Assembly (NCBI RefSeq): GCF_022352215.1 | Contig: NZ_JAKRWF010000001.1 | Location: 1,798,001-1,862,000 of the forward strand | Reading direction: 5' to 3' | Source of the DNA: Flavihumibacter cheonanensis | GTDB taxonomy: Bacteria > Bacteroidota > Bacteroidia > Chitinophagales > Chitinophagaceae | Length of the DNA stretch: 64,000 bases | Part shown: positions 28,535 through 64,000 of the stretch, in pieces | Layout: the number at the start of each line of letters is the position of its first letter | How positions within the stretch are numbered: position 1 is the first letter of the stretch | Notes under the pieces: model-generated | Databases searched by the model: none | What the model saw: only the letters and a program-made list of their open reading frames with translations | Told to the model about the DNA's origin: nothing | Position numbers and translations under genes: made by a program

Positions 28535-30118
28535 ATGACCATCAAATCCAGCCACCTATTATTGCTTTTGCTAGTGGTAATTTTTGGCAAACCTGCGCAA
28601 ACACAGGAAACAGCAAGCAATCCGATTATATATGCGGATGTTCCGGACATGTCCATGATTCGGGTTGGCAATGCCTATTACATGAGCAGCACAACCATGC
28701 ATATGAGTCCGGGTGTACCTATCATGAAATCAACTGATCTGGTCAACTGGAGACTTGTAAATTATGCATATGATACCCTCGCTGATGTTGATGCATTAAA
28801 TCTTCAAAATGGTAAAAATGCGTATGGAGCAGGTTCCTGGGCAAGTAGTATAAGGTACCACAAAGGACTTTATTACGTCACCACCTTTTCATCAACCACC
28901 GGAAAAACCTATATCTATACTACACCTGACATTGAAAAAGGAGCCTGGACAAGAATACAGTTTCAACCCAGTTTGCACGATCATACACTATTCTTTGATG
29001 ATGATGGCAAAGCCTATATGCTTTATGGCAATGGCAAACTCAGCCTTGTTGAACTTAAGAATGATCTTTCTGGTATAGAGCCTGCAGGCATCCATCAGGT
29101 GGTGATTGAAAATGCAAGCCTTCCAGCCGGCACAACTATCGGATTGGGAGCCGAGGGATCGCAATTATACAAGCTTAATGGATATTACTACCTGTTTAAC
29201 ATCACATGGCCCCGGGGTGGGATGCGTACAGTGATCGTTCATCGTTCAAAAAAAATCACAGGCCCTTATGAAGGTAAACTTGCTTTGCAGGATCAGGGAG
29301 TGGCGCAAGGCGGACTTATAGATATGCCAAATGGTAACTGGTATGCCTACCTGTTTCAGGACCATGGTGCAGTTGGCAGGATTCCTTTTCTGGTACCAGT
29401 AAAATGGGTAAACGACTGGCCGGTTTTAGGTGAAAACGGAAAGGTACCCATGACACTAAATCTTCCCCCGAATCAATCCCTGGTTCCTGGTATCGTTTCA
29501 TCTGATAATTTCACCCGAAAACGCAATGAGCGGGATCTGCCACTGGTTTGGCAATGGAATCACAATCCTGATAATTCTTTGTGGTCGGTGAAATCAAGGA
29601 AAGGTTTTCTTCGCTTGACTACAGGCCGAATTGACACCAGTTTGCTAACAGCGCGTAACACATTAACACAAAGAACATTTGGTCCACAAGCTGAGGCAAG
29701 TATTGAAATCGATTGCTCGCATATGAAAAATGGTGATATTGCCGGATTAGCCCTGCTACAAAAAAACTATGGATGGGTAGGACTCAAAAAAATCGGGGAC
29801 AGGTATCATCTCCAAATGCTGAACAACTCTACCGGATCTCCAGAACTGGTTGCTGATATTCCCATACAACAATCTACTTTACATCTCCGTGCCAGTTGTG
29901 ATTTTACCAACAAAACAGATACAGCACATTTCTCTTACAGTCTTGATGGTCAGACCTGGAACCACATCGGTACCACCCTGAAAATGAGCTATACCCTGCC
30001 ACACTTTATGGGTTATCGCTTCGGTCTTTTCAACTTCTCTACTCTACAGCCCGGAGGATTCGTCGATTTTAATCATTTCAACCATTCACCCGTCCGGTGG
30101 CACCGGTCGGGTGAATGA
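28535..30118 (+). CDS. secreted GH43 beta-xylosidase with C-terminal beta domain
   Basis: The 527-residue protein has a signal peptide and a GH43 subfamily 12-like catalytic domain. The base is D38 in IYADVPDMSMIRVGNAYYMS; LHDHTLFFDDDGKAYM and AEGSQLYKLNGYYYLF give the other acidic sites. From about residue 310 a concanavalin-like C-terminal domain follows (DNFTRKR, LRLTTGRIDTSLL, FSYSLDGQTW). Activity is probably exo-xylosidase outside the cytoplasm, complementing the cytoplasmic GH43. The last ten residues, SPVRWHRSGE, and the approach to the stop are encoded by the REP-like palindrome at 30085-30115, so the original C-terminus was probably altered. Confidence 0.92.
   Translation: MTIKSSHLLLLLLVVIFGKPAQTQETASNPIIYADVPDMSMIRVGNAYYMSSTTMHMSPGVPIMKSTDLVNWRLVNYAYDTLADVDALNLQNGKNAYGAGSWASSIRYHKGLYYVTTFSSTTGKTYIYTTPDIEKGAWTRIQFQPSLHDHTLFFDDDGKAYMLYGNGKLSLVELKNDLSGIEPAGIHQVVIENASLPAGTTIGLGAEGSQLYKLNGYYYLFNITWPRGGMRTVIVHRSKKITGPYEGKLALQDQGVAQGGLIDMPNGNWYAYLFQDHGAVGRIPFLVPVKWVNDWPVLGENGKVPMTLNLPPNQSLVPGIVSSDNFTRKRNERDLPLVWQWNHNPDNSLWSVKSRKGFLRLTTGRIDTSLLTARNTLTQRTFGPQAEASIEIDCSHMKNGDIAGLALLQKNYGWVGLKKIGDRYHLQMLNNSTGSPELVADIPIQQSTLHLRASCDFTNKTDTAHFSYSLDGQTWNHIGTTLKMSYTLPHFMGYRFGLFNFSTLQPGGFVDFNHFNHSPVRWHRSGE
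30085..30115. repeat. REP-like palindrome at the 3' end of the GH43 gene
   Basis: The left arm TTCACCCGTCCGGTG (30085-30099) and right arm CACCGGTCGGGTGAA (30101-30115) are inverses with one mismatch around a single centre base. It is nearly identical to the copies at 60.83 and 63.44 kb. It overlaps the last codons of the GH43 reading frame, whose TGA stop at 30116-30118 lies immediately beyond. Confidence 0.85.
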
Positions 30119-60824: not shown

Positions 60825-60869
60825 TTCACCCGTCTGGTGGCACCGGACGGGTGCCACCGGACGGGTGAA
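60825..60869. repeat. REP-like palindrome, one and a half copies
   Basis: A full palindrome starts with TTCACCCGTCTGGTG and continues with GCACCGGACGGGTG, and a second right half CCACCGGACGGGTGAA follows directly. Compared with the copy at 63.44 kb one base in the left arm is changed (C to T), giving a G-U pair. It lies between the M14 and PIG-L genes, where it could shape the joint transcript. Confidence 0.85.
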
Positions 60870-60873
60870 ACTC

Positions 60874-63381
60874 TTATTGTCCTGTTAAAAATAATGCGTT
60901 ACAAAGCAGCAGCTTTCCGTTTTCCCAAAAGCTTCTGAAGATCGGGTTGTCTGCAAAATAGATTACCTGTCCCCTGCCCATATCCTGCGCACCGATCAGC
61001 AGCGCGTCATTTAATTTGGGACGGATATCGCTACCTGCAAATCCACTTACATAATTATCGCGTTTAATCACGCCCACATTCCAACCATCTTCTTTAAAGA
61101 ATTCGTAAAGATTGCCATCTTGTTTGAGGCTGTAATAATAATCAGGGTAACCAAATCCAAGCGGATGTGTGTTATCCAGTTCAAGACGGAAAATGGATCC
61201 CGGCATACTATTTTTCAGCCAGTCGCGCTCCCTGTTTTCGAATTTTCTCAACACTGAATAATCTGATTTTCCCTCTGATTTTTTATCCTCCCCATCTTTC
61301 ATTTTGATTCCCCAGTCGGCCCTTGCCATTTGCGCAACGGCATTTTCAAGTGCAATGATTTTGCCTCCCCTGCGAACCCAGGCTTTCAGGTCATCATTAA
61401 GTTCCTTTTTATTGAAGAAATCATAACTTCCATCTGCCAGTATCAGCACATCATAGGTATTCATGCCCTCGCGGATAAAATCATTGGCACTCATTACAGT
61501 TACAGGATACTTCAATTGTGTATCGAAGAAATGCCACAGTTCACCAAAGCCCAAAGATGAAATATTCTCTCCTGCCAACAATGCCACTTTGGGAGCATTA
61601 ATGATTCGAACATTACTGGAACCAAAATCATATCCTTTGTCGACGAAACCGGAAGGAATGGAATAAAGCTGCGATTGGGTTTCAGCAGCGATTTGCTGAA
61701 CTTCTTTAAGGATATCTTTCCCAGAATTGGCAGCTTTGGTTACCAGCAGGCTTCCTTTTTCGAAATTCTGATTTCCTGATTGGAAAGGCTGCTGGGTAAA
61801 TCGTACTTTCAATCCTTTTTTCAACGCAGCAGCAAGGAATTTAGCACTGTTTAAACCATCCCATTTAATCGCATATGCATATGCGTTAGGATCAACTGCT
61901 ATATCCTTAAAGGCGGGGGTAGTTTTTGTGGTGGCAGTAATAAAATTTGTTACACCATATGCTTTTAATCCATACACATAGGGCATGGACCATGCGGTAA
62001 TATCATAGGTAGCCGAATCGGTTATGGCTGAGTTACGCTCAAACAATACTTTTACGAAATTCCCTTTGGGCTGATTCAGGTTGATTACAATATCTCCCGG
62101 CTCTGCCTTAAAGCTTTCTGATTTTCCGGTAAAATAATTGAGACCGGAATAACTGGCACTGGATGCATAACTCCAGTCAACCAGGTTTTTATCAAGCAAA
62201 GAAGTGAGACGACTCACGCGATCTGTTCCATCATTTTTGATTACCCAGGATTTGAACTCACCTGCTGGTTTTGCCAACACATTGGTAAAGTAATTCCTGA
62301 ATTCTTTCACAACGCGGGCTGCATGCTGAGAAGTGATTTCCACCGTACTGATACCGGTTGTAAAGTGGTGCTGAACGCGATCAACCAGGGTTAGTGTATC
62401 ACCATCTTCATTGATGATTCCCAATCCGGCCCGGATGCCTCCCTGCTCATAGGTCATACCGATAGCACCATGATAGGTCGGATAGGTATCACCGTAAGAA
62501 GGATAAAAGAGATCGAAGCGCTCTTTAGTGAAATACAACCATCCTTCTTTGTCAAAATAACGGGCATGATTCTTTCCGATCATGGTCTGAAATTCCCGCT
62601 GCCAGGGCGTTATCACTTCATGAAAGGGTTCCGCAGCAGGCGCAAAATAATAAGGCTCATTAACTCCCTGCTCATGAAAATCAACATGTACCTGAGGCAA
62701 CCAGGTATTGTATACTTTTAGCCGATGCTGGCTTTCCTTTTGGGTTTGCCAGGCCCAGTCGCGGTTCAGATCAAAATTATAATGATTGCTTCTTCCTCCA
62801 GGCCAGGGTTCGCGATGTTCTCTTGCGATGGGCTCCGGATTGATCGTTTGTCCGATTACAGTTGTATACCAGTTTACATAGCGGTCGCGTCCGTCTGGAT
62901 TCAAACAGGGATCAATCAGCACCACCGTATTCTGCAGCCACTGTTGTGATCTGGAATTGGATGGATTAACCAGTTCATAGGCGGTCAGCATTGCCGCTTC
63001 GGATGAGGAGGTTTCATTACCATGCACATTATAACTCAGCCAAACAATAGCAGGTGCGTTTTCATTTGGTGCTGCTTTATCACGGGTGGAATTCGCAAGC
63101 CGAAGGTTATTGGTTCGAATGGCTTCGATATTGGACATATTTTGAGTACTGGCGATGGTTGCCAGTAAAAGAGGACGCCCTTCATTGGTTTCTCCGTACT
63201 GCTCCAGTTTCAGTTGCTGGGGAGCTTCCTTGGCGAGGTGCTGAAAATACTGCACGATCCGGTAATGGGGAGTGTAGTGAGTACCTACCTTGTATCCTAA
63301 AAATGCCTCCGGTGATTTTAGCTGTGCATGGGTTCCTGATACCACCAGAAGGACTCCCGCCAAACAAATTAGTCTTCTCAT
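60874..63381 (-). CDS. M14-family zinc carboxypeptidase
   Basis: Read from the ATG at 63381 (MRRLICLAG) the protein has 835 residues with a signal peptide (to GTHAQ). The zinc site is H120 and E123 in YNVHGNETSSSEAAML; DPCLNPDGRDRYVNWY is the substrate-binding Arg region and VHVDFHEQGVNEPYYFAPA supplies the third His. The catalytic domain spans about 350 residues. The C-terminal 450 residues form beta domains, with a part (YDVLILADGSYDFFNKKELNDDLKAWVRRGGKIIAL) resembling amidotransferase folds, similar to the PIG-L C-terminus. Substrate unknown; likely a peptide or peptide-sugar conjugate. It is the first gene of the leftward cluster. Confidence 0.9.
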   Translation of the reverse strand: MRRLICLAGVLLVVSGTHAQLKSPEAFLGYKVGTHYTPHYRIVQYFQHLAKEAPQQLKLEQYGETNEGRPLLLATIASTQNMSNIEAIRTNNLRLANSTRDKAAPNENAPAIVWLSYNVHGNETSSSEAAMLTAYELVNPSNSRSQQWLQNTVVLIDPCLNPDGRDRYVNWYTTVIGQTINPEPIAREHREPWPGGRSNHYNFDLNRDWAWQTQKESQHRLKVYNTWLPQVHVDFHEQGVNEPYYFAPAAEPFHEVITPWQREFQTMIGKNHARYFDKEGWLYFTKERFDLFYPSYGDTYPTYHGAIGMTYEQGGIRAGLGIINEDGDTLTLVDRVQHHFTTGISTVEITSQHAARVVKEFRNYFTNVLAKPAGEFKSWVIKNDGTDRVSRLTSLLDKNLVDWSYASSASYSGLNYFTGKSESFKAEPGDIVINLNQPKGNFVKVLFERNSAITDSATYDITAWSMPYVYGLKAYGVTNFITATTKTTPAFKDIAVDPNAYAYAIKWDGLNSAKFLAAALKKGLKVRFTQQPFQSGNQNFEKGSLLVTKAANSGKDILKEVQQIAAETQSQLYSIPSGFVDKGYDFGSSNVRIINAPKVALLAGENISSLGFGELWHFFDTQLKYPVTVMSANDFIREGMNTYDVLILADGSYDFFNKKELNDDLKAWVRRGGKIIALENAVAQMARADWGIKMKDGEDKKSEGKSDYSVLRKFENRERDWLKNSMPGSIFRLELDNTHPLGFGYPDYYYSLKQDGNLYEFFKEDGWNVGVIKRDNYVSGFAGSDIRPKLNDALLIGAQDMGRGQVIYFADNPIFRSFWENGKLLLCNALFLTGQ

Positions 63382-63434
63382 ATATATGTTATTCAAGTTA
63401 CTGAACAAAGTTCCGAAGCTAAGGAAATTCTTCC

Positions 63435-63465
63435 TTCACCCGTCCGGTGGCACCGGACGGGTGAA
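63435..63465. repeat. REP-like palindrome next to the RAYT gene
   Basis: TTCACCCGTCCGGTG (63435-63449) and CACCGGACGGGTGAA (63451-63465) are perfect inverses around a central G. It is the most regular copy in the window and lies 66 bases before the transposase start, as expected for the parent REP of a RAYT gene. Confidence 0.88.
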
Positions 63466-63530
63466 AAGACCTAAGCAAAACAGGTAATCCCACCCTTGCA
63501 AGAATTAATCAATCAAAAGACCTTTGAAAC

Positions 63531-64000
63531 ATGACTTCAAATACACATATAATGGAACCCGGGATATTTTATCATGTTTGTAACAGGGCAGTTGGAAAGG
63601 ATGTGTTATTCAAACATTTTTTCGATTACGATGATTACCTGACAGATATCGAAAAAATAATCCTGCCGGTAGCTAATTTGAACGCTTACTGCATACTGGA
63701 CAATCATTACCACTTACTAGTGAGGATTCGTGAACATGCAAGTGGATTTGAATTTAGTCAAGCTGTAAATCGTCTTCAAAGTATTCATGCCAAACGGTTC
63801 AACTATAAATACAAGCGCAAAGGCGGACTTTTTTTACGTCCATTTAACAGAATCCCTATAAAAAATGATGGCCAGTTGGCCTGGGTTTTCTGGTACATTC
63901 ACCGAAATCCATTACACCATGGAAAAACTGAAAATTGGGAAGACTATCCATATTCCTCCTACAGTTATTTTAAATATAACAGAGCATCTTTTTTAGACAC
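63531..64000 (+). CDS. REP-associated tyrosine (RAYT/IS200-like) transposase, partial
   Basis: The frame starts at ATG 63531 (or ATG 63552) and runs to the window end without a stop, giving at least 156 residues. YHVCNRAVGKDVLF at the start matches the RAYT family. The HUH metal site is H59-Y60-H61 in LDNHYHLLVRI. A candidate nucleophile is Y122 in WYIHRNPLHHG, and YPYSSY near 139-144 is a family tail. These single-strand transposases mobilise REP hairpins. A matching palindrome lies just upstream. The C-terminus and any downstream REP lie outside the window. Confidence 0.9.
   Translation, partial: MTSNTHIMEPGIFYHVCNRAVGKDVLFKHFFDYDDYLTDIEKIILPVANLNAYCILDNHYHLLVRIREHASGFEFSQAVNRLQSIHAKRFNYKYKRKGGLFLRPFNRIPIKNDGQLAWVFWYIHRNPLHHGKTENWEDYPYSSYSYFKYNRASFLD

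Follow-up and report, generated by a model that had tools for sequence, protein, structure and literature searches.

A REP-RAYT system in Flavihumibacter and its hairpin units at slots shared between relatives

Repetitive extragenic palindromes (REPs) with their REP-associated tyrosine transposases (RAYTs), the co-divergence of RAYT and REP, and Bacteroidota RAYTs with atypical repeats are described in the available text of earlier work (PMC3686654; PMC3116915; PMC6006769). Quentin et al. (2018, PMC6006769) defined a TnpAREP/RAYT subclass 2.6 (RAYT group 5) with 'atypical' repeats without GTAG, and a REP 'orthoswitch' was reported in Pseudomonas and Stenotrophomonas by Nunvar et al. (2013, PMC3686654). 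The TnpAREP of E. coli was found in vitro to cut at CT beside its single-stranded REP hairpin and to join strands (PMC8266576), and the consulted parts of PMC8266576 and PMC3686654 treat the spread of REPs as an open question. Here we report on a system in Flavihumibacter cheonanensis, seen in a stretch of 64,000 nucleotides (the window; G000:C110:1798001-1862000) of a 4.84-Mb genome in 241 contigs, referred to below as G000. It is near certain that this is a Bacteroidota REP-RAYT, that is, REP-like palindromes with a cognate RAYT. From sequence comparison with relatives, we give a probability of about 60% to the reading that its RAYT swaps, adds and removes hairpin units chiefly at existing arrays, with a new unit sweeping the old slots. 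The initial annotation, made from the letters of the window, called such a system poorly described; this was fair, although the kind is already in print for Bacteroidetes, and since Bacteroidota REP-RAYTs were presented by Quentin et al. (2018, PMC6006769) the layout itself is not new.

Repeat anatomy and slots shared with relatives

The unit CACCCGTCCGGTG gave 152 matches in the G000 genome at up to one mismatch (69 + 83 by strand), and its reversed control gave 1 (0 + 1); a count in the full genome had been set as a test by the initial annotation, and rarity of the palindrome was thus ruled out. In the window, 8 matches were observed at up to two mismatches against 0.72 expected, a number reached in 0 of 100 shuffles. 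For the array counts, clusters were built from 100 of the 152 matches and 16 of the 18 G000 places with A-centred units, together with others in the same stretches, a sample that covers part of the genome. Of the resulting 72 clusters, 52 had at least two units and were used as arrays; their units were all T-centred in 48, all A-centred in 2 and mixed in 2. The 20 single units, two of which (404240 and 771761) look like chance matches in coding DNA, were left out, and units with more than two mismatches were not counted in array or slot tallies.

The repeats were found to be arrays of 13-nt quasi-palindromic units with a 14-nt period and a fixed grammar. A single base, C or G, separated the units in the 69 neighbouring pairs within clusters, and in 52/52 arrays the nucleotide bordering the array was a pyrimidine at the left end and a purine at the right end. 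Three-unit arrays made up 17 of the 52; alternation (+-+ or -+-) was seen in none of these, nor in 26 three- or four-unit arrays in the compared DNA of the relative G008; each array had at most one inversion point. The T-centred units in arrays were exact in 98 of 115 cases, with one mismatch in the other 17. For a lone unit the DNA fold was weak, at -1.7 kcal/mol not better than that of shuffled sequences, and for a doublet it was strong (-17.5 kcal/mol).

Three arrays of the window, listed without strand, illustrate this anatomy. The doublet upstream of the RAYT (63435..63465) has the form TT-u-G-u'-AA and is T-centred, with a perfect doublet at 63437-63463 and a DNA fold of -17.5 kcal/mol (z -7.2). 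Between M14 peptidase and PIG-L genes lies a three-unit array in the order + - - (60825..60869; units at 60827-60867, one mismatch in the first), which folds as a 20-bp hairpin of -25.3 kcal/mol; its slot is occupied in G008 by three A-centred units and in another relative, G004, by the palindrome CATCCGCCAAGGCGGATG. The third array (30085..30115) is a mixed doublet of one T-centred and one A-centred unit, reading CACCCGTCCGGTG G CACCGGTCGGGTG at 30087-30113, the second unit being a variant; in G004 the slot carries an A-type pair with one mismatch per unit and in G008 it looks strongly decayed. We read this mixed doublet as a half-finished switch. The copies had been called nearly identical, which was not the case, as the three comprise 2, 3 and 2 units and the 30-kb copy mixes two unit types. 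The window by itself does not reveal the unit switch at shared slots.

For the 48 purely T-centred G000 arrays, the flanking sequences were aligned with 0.60 Mb of G008 and 0.79 Mb of G004. In G008, 25 of the 48 slots were found; 23 of them held A-centred units, 2 held only another palindrome (CCGCC-GGCGG), and none held a T-centred array. As the G008 stretches, except for contig C2, were picked for their exact A-type units, the proportion of shared slots is biased upward. Units at these 23 slots were exact in 51 of 57 cases, and one slot also had a poor T-like unit. Compared with G000, unit number differed at 10 of these 23 slots, orientation only at 7 and neither at 6, and the flanks were often, not always, kept to the array edge. 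The near-absence of T-type units from G008 is free of the selection bias, because a T-type search at up to one mismatch gave 148 matches in that genome, and the 143 exact A-type units, being one base off, leave 5. Furthermore, one region was compared whole (G000 C110:1.69-1.93 Mb with G008 contig C2). Each of the 5 G008 arrays with at least two units in it had a T-centred partner in G000, two of the five flanking the RAYT; of its 7 G000 arrays, 5 were matched, the 30-kb array of the window looked strongly decayed in G008, and one A-type pair was without a G008 unit.

Alignment with G004 recovered 16 of the 48 slots, of which 9 were A-type, 1 was a T-type pair and 6 were neither, some of these six carrying a CCGCC-type palindrome and some being empty (e.g., C164:302229). 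A-type units at aligned slots were exact in 12 of 18 cases in G004 and 51 of 57 in G008 (Fisher p 0.03), a weak comparison, as both samples were largely chosen by exact matches.

A further palindrome family, TCCGCC-NN-GGCGGA, was noted during the comparison, with 8 sites in G000, 10 each in G008 and G005 and 6 in G004 (control 0 in all four). It adjoins some A-type units and occupies equivalent slots in relatives; examples are at G000 C164:447563, 448025, 484488 and 808280 and C186:150484, G004 C11:941496 and G008 C3:125993.

The RAYT gene, its units across the genus and its losses

The RAYT (HUH Y1 transposase-like) gene enters the window with its first 470 bases (63531..64000, + strand). When extended past the right edge, the full 191-aa gene was found to end at window-equivalent 64106, with HUH residues and tyrosine in the complete form and with a downstream doublet, identical in letters to the upstream one, beginning 1 base past the stop codon. 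Counting its TT/AA ends, the upstream doublet extends to 63465, and with the ATG at 63531 there are 65 bases between them, where 66 had been given. The initial annotation had named two things that would speak against it, a palindrome rare in the genome and a complete gene without the HUH residues and tyrosine; neither holds, because of the 152 genome matches against 1 in the control and the complete gene with both motifs.

The HUH motif is NHYH (H59/H61), and the tyrosine motif is YIHRNP with Y122; both were invariant in 3 aligned sequences. The earlier reading of H59-Y60-H61 was right, with Y60 only the 'U' of HUH and Y122 the likely nucleophile as judged from the motif. An SS motif lies at 142-143. 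The HUH-to-Y spacing is 63; among 19 more remote homologues in which both motifs were found, 17 had spacings of 73-93. Against Pfam Y1_Tnp the protein gave E 1.9e-4 (22 bits, just below the 23-bit cut-off), against NCBIfam REP_Tyr_transpos NF047646 E 4.2e-14 (52.6 bits, below the curated 80-bit cut-off), and by sequence only 4er8 gave E 1.7. A structure model of the G008 orthologue (L063), built from 3 sequences with a mean pLDDT of 60.4 (modest confidence), matched TnpAREP 4er8 in Foldseek (E 5.5e-4, TM 0.42/0.48), with IS608 chains close behind and Thg1 chains equal to or outscoring 4er8; given this pLDDT and the rank of Thg1 beside TnpAREP, the fold serves as supporting evidence only. Taken with the copy number and the flanking repeats, these matches bear out the complete REP-RAYT layout that had been proposed. 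The RAYT was the sole match in the G000 genome at E 0.001. Membership of IS200/IS605 (class 1) was rejected, as the motif is YIHRNP and not Y[IV]ENQ, and the single syntenic copy shows no insertion sequence (IS) behaviour. The RAYT appears to be a single-copy, vertically inherited and domesticated Y1 HUH nuclease (class 2, TnpAREP-like).

A RAYT of this clade was present in 8 of 15 genus genomes including G000, the other seven being 43-80% identical to that of G000. All 8 carriers had it at a common M14 peptidase-RAYT-GGT locus, and in all 8 it had units on both flanks, so that the gene is bordered by genome-abundant repeats (152 copies in G000); one genome match and one locus in 8/8 carriers argue for low copy number and vertical inheritance and against movement as an IS. 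As a query against genome contigs, the RAYT gave only 3 loci. G011 and Flavihumibacter stibioxidans YS-17, a species that carries the T-G type, have RAYTs with exactly the same letters, and the G008 gene is identical to that in a record titled Flavipsychrobacter sp. MAG-374.

The centre of the flanking unit differed by RAYT lineage over the 8 syntenic loci: CACCCGTCCGGTG in G000; CACCCGACCGGTG in G008 and G014; CACCCGTCGGGTG or its core in G011, G007, G010 and G003; and ACCCG[CG]CGGGT in G013. Exact A-C type units numbered 172 in G014, 143 in G008, 32 in G004, 18 in G000 (mostly single), 15 in G005 (55% complete), 9 in G002 and 1 in G010, with 0 in the other eight genus genomes, among them G011, G007, G003 and G013. 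Exact T-G type units numbered 240 in G011, 48 in G007, 47 in G010, 21 in G003, 11 in G014, 2 in G009 and 1 in G008, with 0 in the other eight. The S type was counted 120 times in G013, 63 in G014, 29 in G012, 11 each in G010 and G002 and at most 4 elsewhere (control at most 2), and the T-C type of G000 was counted over all genomes at up to one mismatch, which takes in other types. Exact units of the own type thus amounted to 21 to 240 in six open-frame carriers beyond G000 and at least 100 in G000, and G001, G006 and G009, without a RAYT at the locus, had at most 3 units of the A-C, T-G and S types.

Natural losses were seen in close relatives. In a GGT tree of 14 genomes, G004 and G005 grouped with G000 (91% for the split), the order among the three being left unresolved. 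In both, the M14-GGT gap is without a RAYT and has one palindrome instead, which joins the left flank of the G000 upstream array to the right flank of the G000 downstream array; the second unit of the G004 palindrome is degenerate. The rest of G004 and of the incomplete G005 also yielded no RAYT. These two genomes keep mostly A-centred units, and because A-type units occur in G004, G005, G008 and G014, A was likely the ancestral centre, with the change to T falling in the G000 line. A RAYT remnant was found at the locus in G012 and no match there in G001, G002, G006 and G009; distant RAYT homologues lie elsewhere in G001, G002, G006 and G012.

Beyond the genus, AAACCTNNNAGGTTT units were found as pairs about 3 bases apart beside some distant RAYTs of the order. 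Their counts were 32, 24 and 15 in G021, G046 and G033 (control 1, 0 and 2), 7 in G026 and at most 4 in the rest of 59 genomes. G021 has two RAYTs (L041 and L060), whose flanking AAACCT-NNN-AGGTTT units differ in the centre triplet (GTG at one, ATA at the other). Pairs of ACCTNNNAGGT were present on at least one side at 4 of 16 non-genus RAYT loci (L041, L043, L047 and L060), and none was found within 250 bases at the other 12. In G046, a genome rich in AAACCTNNNAGGTTT-type units, the RAYT nevertheless has another palindrome on its flanks.

How units may be replaced in place

The following course of events would account for these data. Two or three units one base apart fold into one strong hairpin, and the RAYT would cut and rejoin single-stranded unit hairpins at replication, by a chemistry that it may share, by analogy, with the E. 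coli TnpAREP. Such cutting and joining would swap, add or remove units, chiefly in existing arrays and in 14-nt steps; upon a change of the RAYT-adjacent unit, or of RAYT specificity, the new unit would sweep the old slots, and lineages losing the RAYT would keep the old unit, which then would decay. The shared slots suggest that copies were rewritten in place to the new version more than they jumped to new sites; both the RAYT as cause of the switch and the preference for existing sites are what we infer. A stronger form, to which we give somewhat less than even odds, is that the RAYT acts as a find-and-replace enzyme guided by the unit centre, whose main product is the exchange of hairpin cassettes at fixed slots and not new insertion, so that the family would switch its sequence and keep its addresses.

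Several observations weigh against RAYT-driven replacement at existing arrays. Most of the compared G008 and G004 stretches were chosen for exact A-type units, contig C2 of G008 being the exception. G008 has a RAYT, yet its copy at the 30-kb slot of the window looks strongly decayed, and mostly A-type G004 has the T-centred pair at C36:398939-398965, whose right flank is 100% identical to G000 and which was perhaps imported by recent recombination. Two abundant types in G014 (172 A-type and 63 S-type), which also has a second, distant RAYT homologue, are an exception to one unit per RAYT. Copy number does not cleanly track the RAYT, as 29 S-type units in G012 (remnant only) and 32 A-type units in RAYT-less G004 exceed the 21 in RAYT-bearing G003. 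The G013 RAYT frame (L037) has one in-frame TGA, yet 120 own S-type units persist, so that the TGA may reflect a recent break or an error in sequencing. The dependence on the RAYT rests on one or two losses, since G004 and G005 may share one. Finally, the GT[AG]G foot of canonical REPs was found beside the hairpin in 0/52 G000 arrays.

The best surviving alternative, though in our judgement an unlikely one, is homogenisation in place without the RAYT, by RecA-type gene conversion or by template switching at hairpins between dispersed copies, the RAYT being a bystander between two copies. Template switching would fit changes confined to the array, flanks that are often intact up to its edge and the limit of one inversion point in any array, and G013 and G012 keep their 120 and 29 units with a stopped RAYT and a remnant. 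On the other hand, the arrays are only about 30-45 bp long; own-type units number at least 100 in G000 and 21 to 240 in the other six carriers with an open frame, but no more than 3 (A-C, T-G and S types) in G001, G006 and G009, which have no RAYT at the locus; and RAYT-less G004 followed the switch at only 1 of 16 aligned slots.

The classical orthoswitch model (Nunvar et al., 2013), in which a new unit transposes to new sites while old units stay and decay, appears less probable still. It would explain the 18 exact A-type units, mostly single, that remain in G000, and the G000 arrays without an array at the G004 slot, such as C164:302229 and the in-frame C186:421477. However, for 23 of 25 aligned T-centred G000 arrays the G008 slot carries A-centred units, and all 5 G008 arrays with at least two units in the region aligned in full were matched by a T-centred G000 array, two of the five flanking the RAYT.

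The position of 50 arrays with T-centred units was determined relative to open reading frames (ORFs) from a simple purpose-made caller: 21 lay in tandem, 12 in divergent and 12 in convergent gaps, 4 lay inside ORFs and 1 was without an ORF on one side. Of the arrays with a neighbouring stop codon, 28 of 33 were within 15 nt of it (one of the 28 overlapping the ORF end), as against 14.3 expected under even placement in their own gaps, and 28 was reached in 0 of 20,000 simulations; in gaps of at least 80 nt the figure was 14 of 19 against 2.8 expected. The suggestion that non-autonomous copies sit between genes or at gene ends was thus borne out. Intrinsic terminators were rejected, as TTTT was present in 1 of 104 outward 8-nt flanks and 12 of 50 arrays lie between divergent genes. 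One three-unit array lies in frame within a coding gene, which by its motifs looks like the GTPase gene mnmE (L091:2578-2618; G000 C186:421477-421517), and the G004 stretch differs there. A role of the palindromes as functional sites of the host, either operators or hairpins at transcript 3' ends, with selection keeping some hairpin at each slot and any palindrome family sufficing, is highly improbable. Closeness to stops (28 of 33 against 14.3) and slots filled by a different family in a relative would favour it, but the 12 of 50 divergent placements and the lack of a U-tract (TTTT in 1/104 flanks) do not, and RAYT flanking in 8/8 carriers and a genome-wide one-base centre change are left unexplained.

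Comparison with described systems

Searches of open-licence PMC papers turned up none that describes this anatomy of the unit, treats these repeats in Flavihumibacter or deals with the replacement of units at slots shared between genomes. As far as searched, four features are new: the anatomy of 13-mer arrays at a 14-nt period with fixed grammar; the variation of the unit centre with RAYT lineage at 8/8 syntenic loci; A-centred against T-centred units at shared G008/G000 slots; and two close relatives without the RAYT, with a single palindrome in its place and mostly A-centred units. The genus offers natural RAYT losses, unit types one or two bases apart, and slots that look unswitched, mixed and switched, which makes RAYT-driven replacement in place directly testable.

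Compared with subclass 2.6 as given in the available text of PMC6006769, the present RAYT is likewise from Bacteroidota, with a YIxxNP class-2 motif, an SS motif after the core, and flanking atypical secondary structures without GT[AG]G that have copies elsewhere in the genome. It differs in having NHYH and YIHRNP where the subclass has NH[LIV]H and YIH[QN]NP, in an HUH-to-Y spacing of 63 against a median of 82, which leaves no room for the 21-aa insertion of the subclass, and in having FL (F[LIM]) where TnpAREP 4er8 has WQ, a subclass 2.6 feature. We thus rejected its filing as subclass 2.6, several defining features being missed.

The CGTC-tagged REPs (Di Nocera et al., 2013, PMC3733652) are also short palindromes, some of them in Bacteroidetes, and CGTC is found within our unit. 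In the portion of that source consulted, CGTC is an unpaired end tag and no flanked transposase gene was found, whereas here CGTC is part of the paired stem and the repeats flank a RAYT; membership was rejected because of this position inside the stem. As in REPINs (Bertels and Rainey, 2011, PMC3116915), an inverted doublet is a main form and singlets look like remnants; unlike what that source's available text describes, the units are of 13 nt and 1 nt apart, and triplets are common (17/52) where in REPINs they are rarer than expected.

The orthoswitch (PMC3686654) is similar in that orthologous syntenic RAYTs have differing flanking REP classes, with class abundance depending on the RAYT. 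There, according to the sections of the paper at hand, old REPs remain and decay, whereas here old slots carry the new unit; a comparison at the level of single sites was made here, and none was noted in those sections. The repeats that PMC6006769, in its available text, calls only atypical are given a concrete anatomy for Bacteroidota by the present system.

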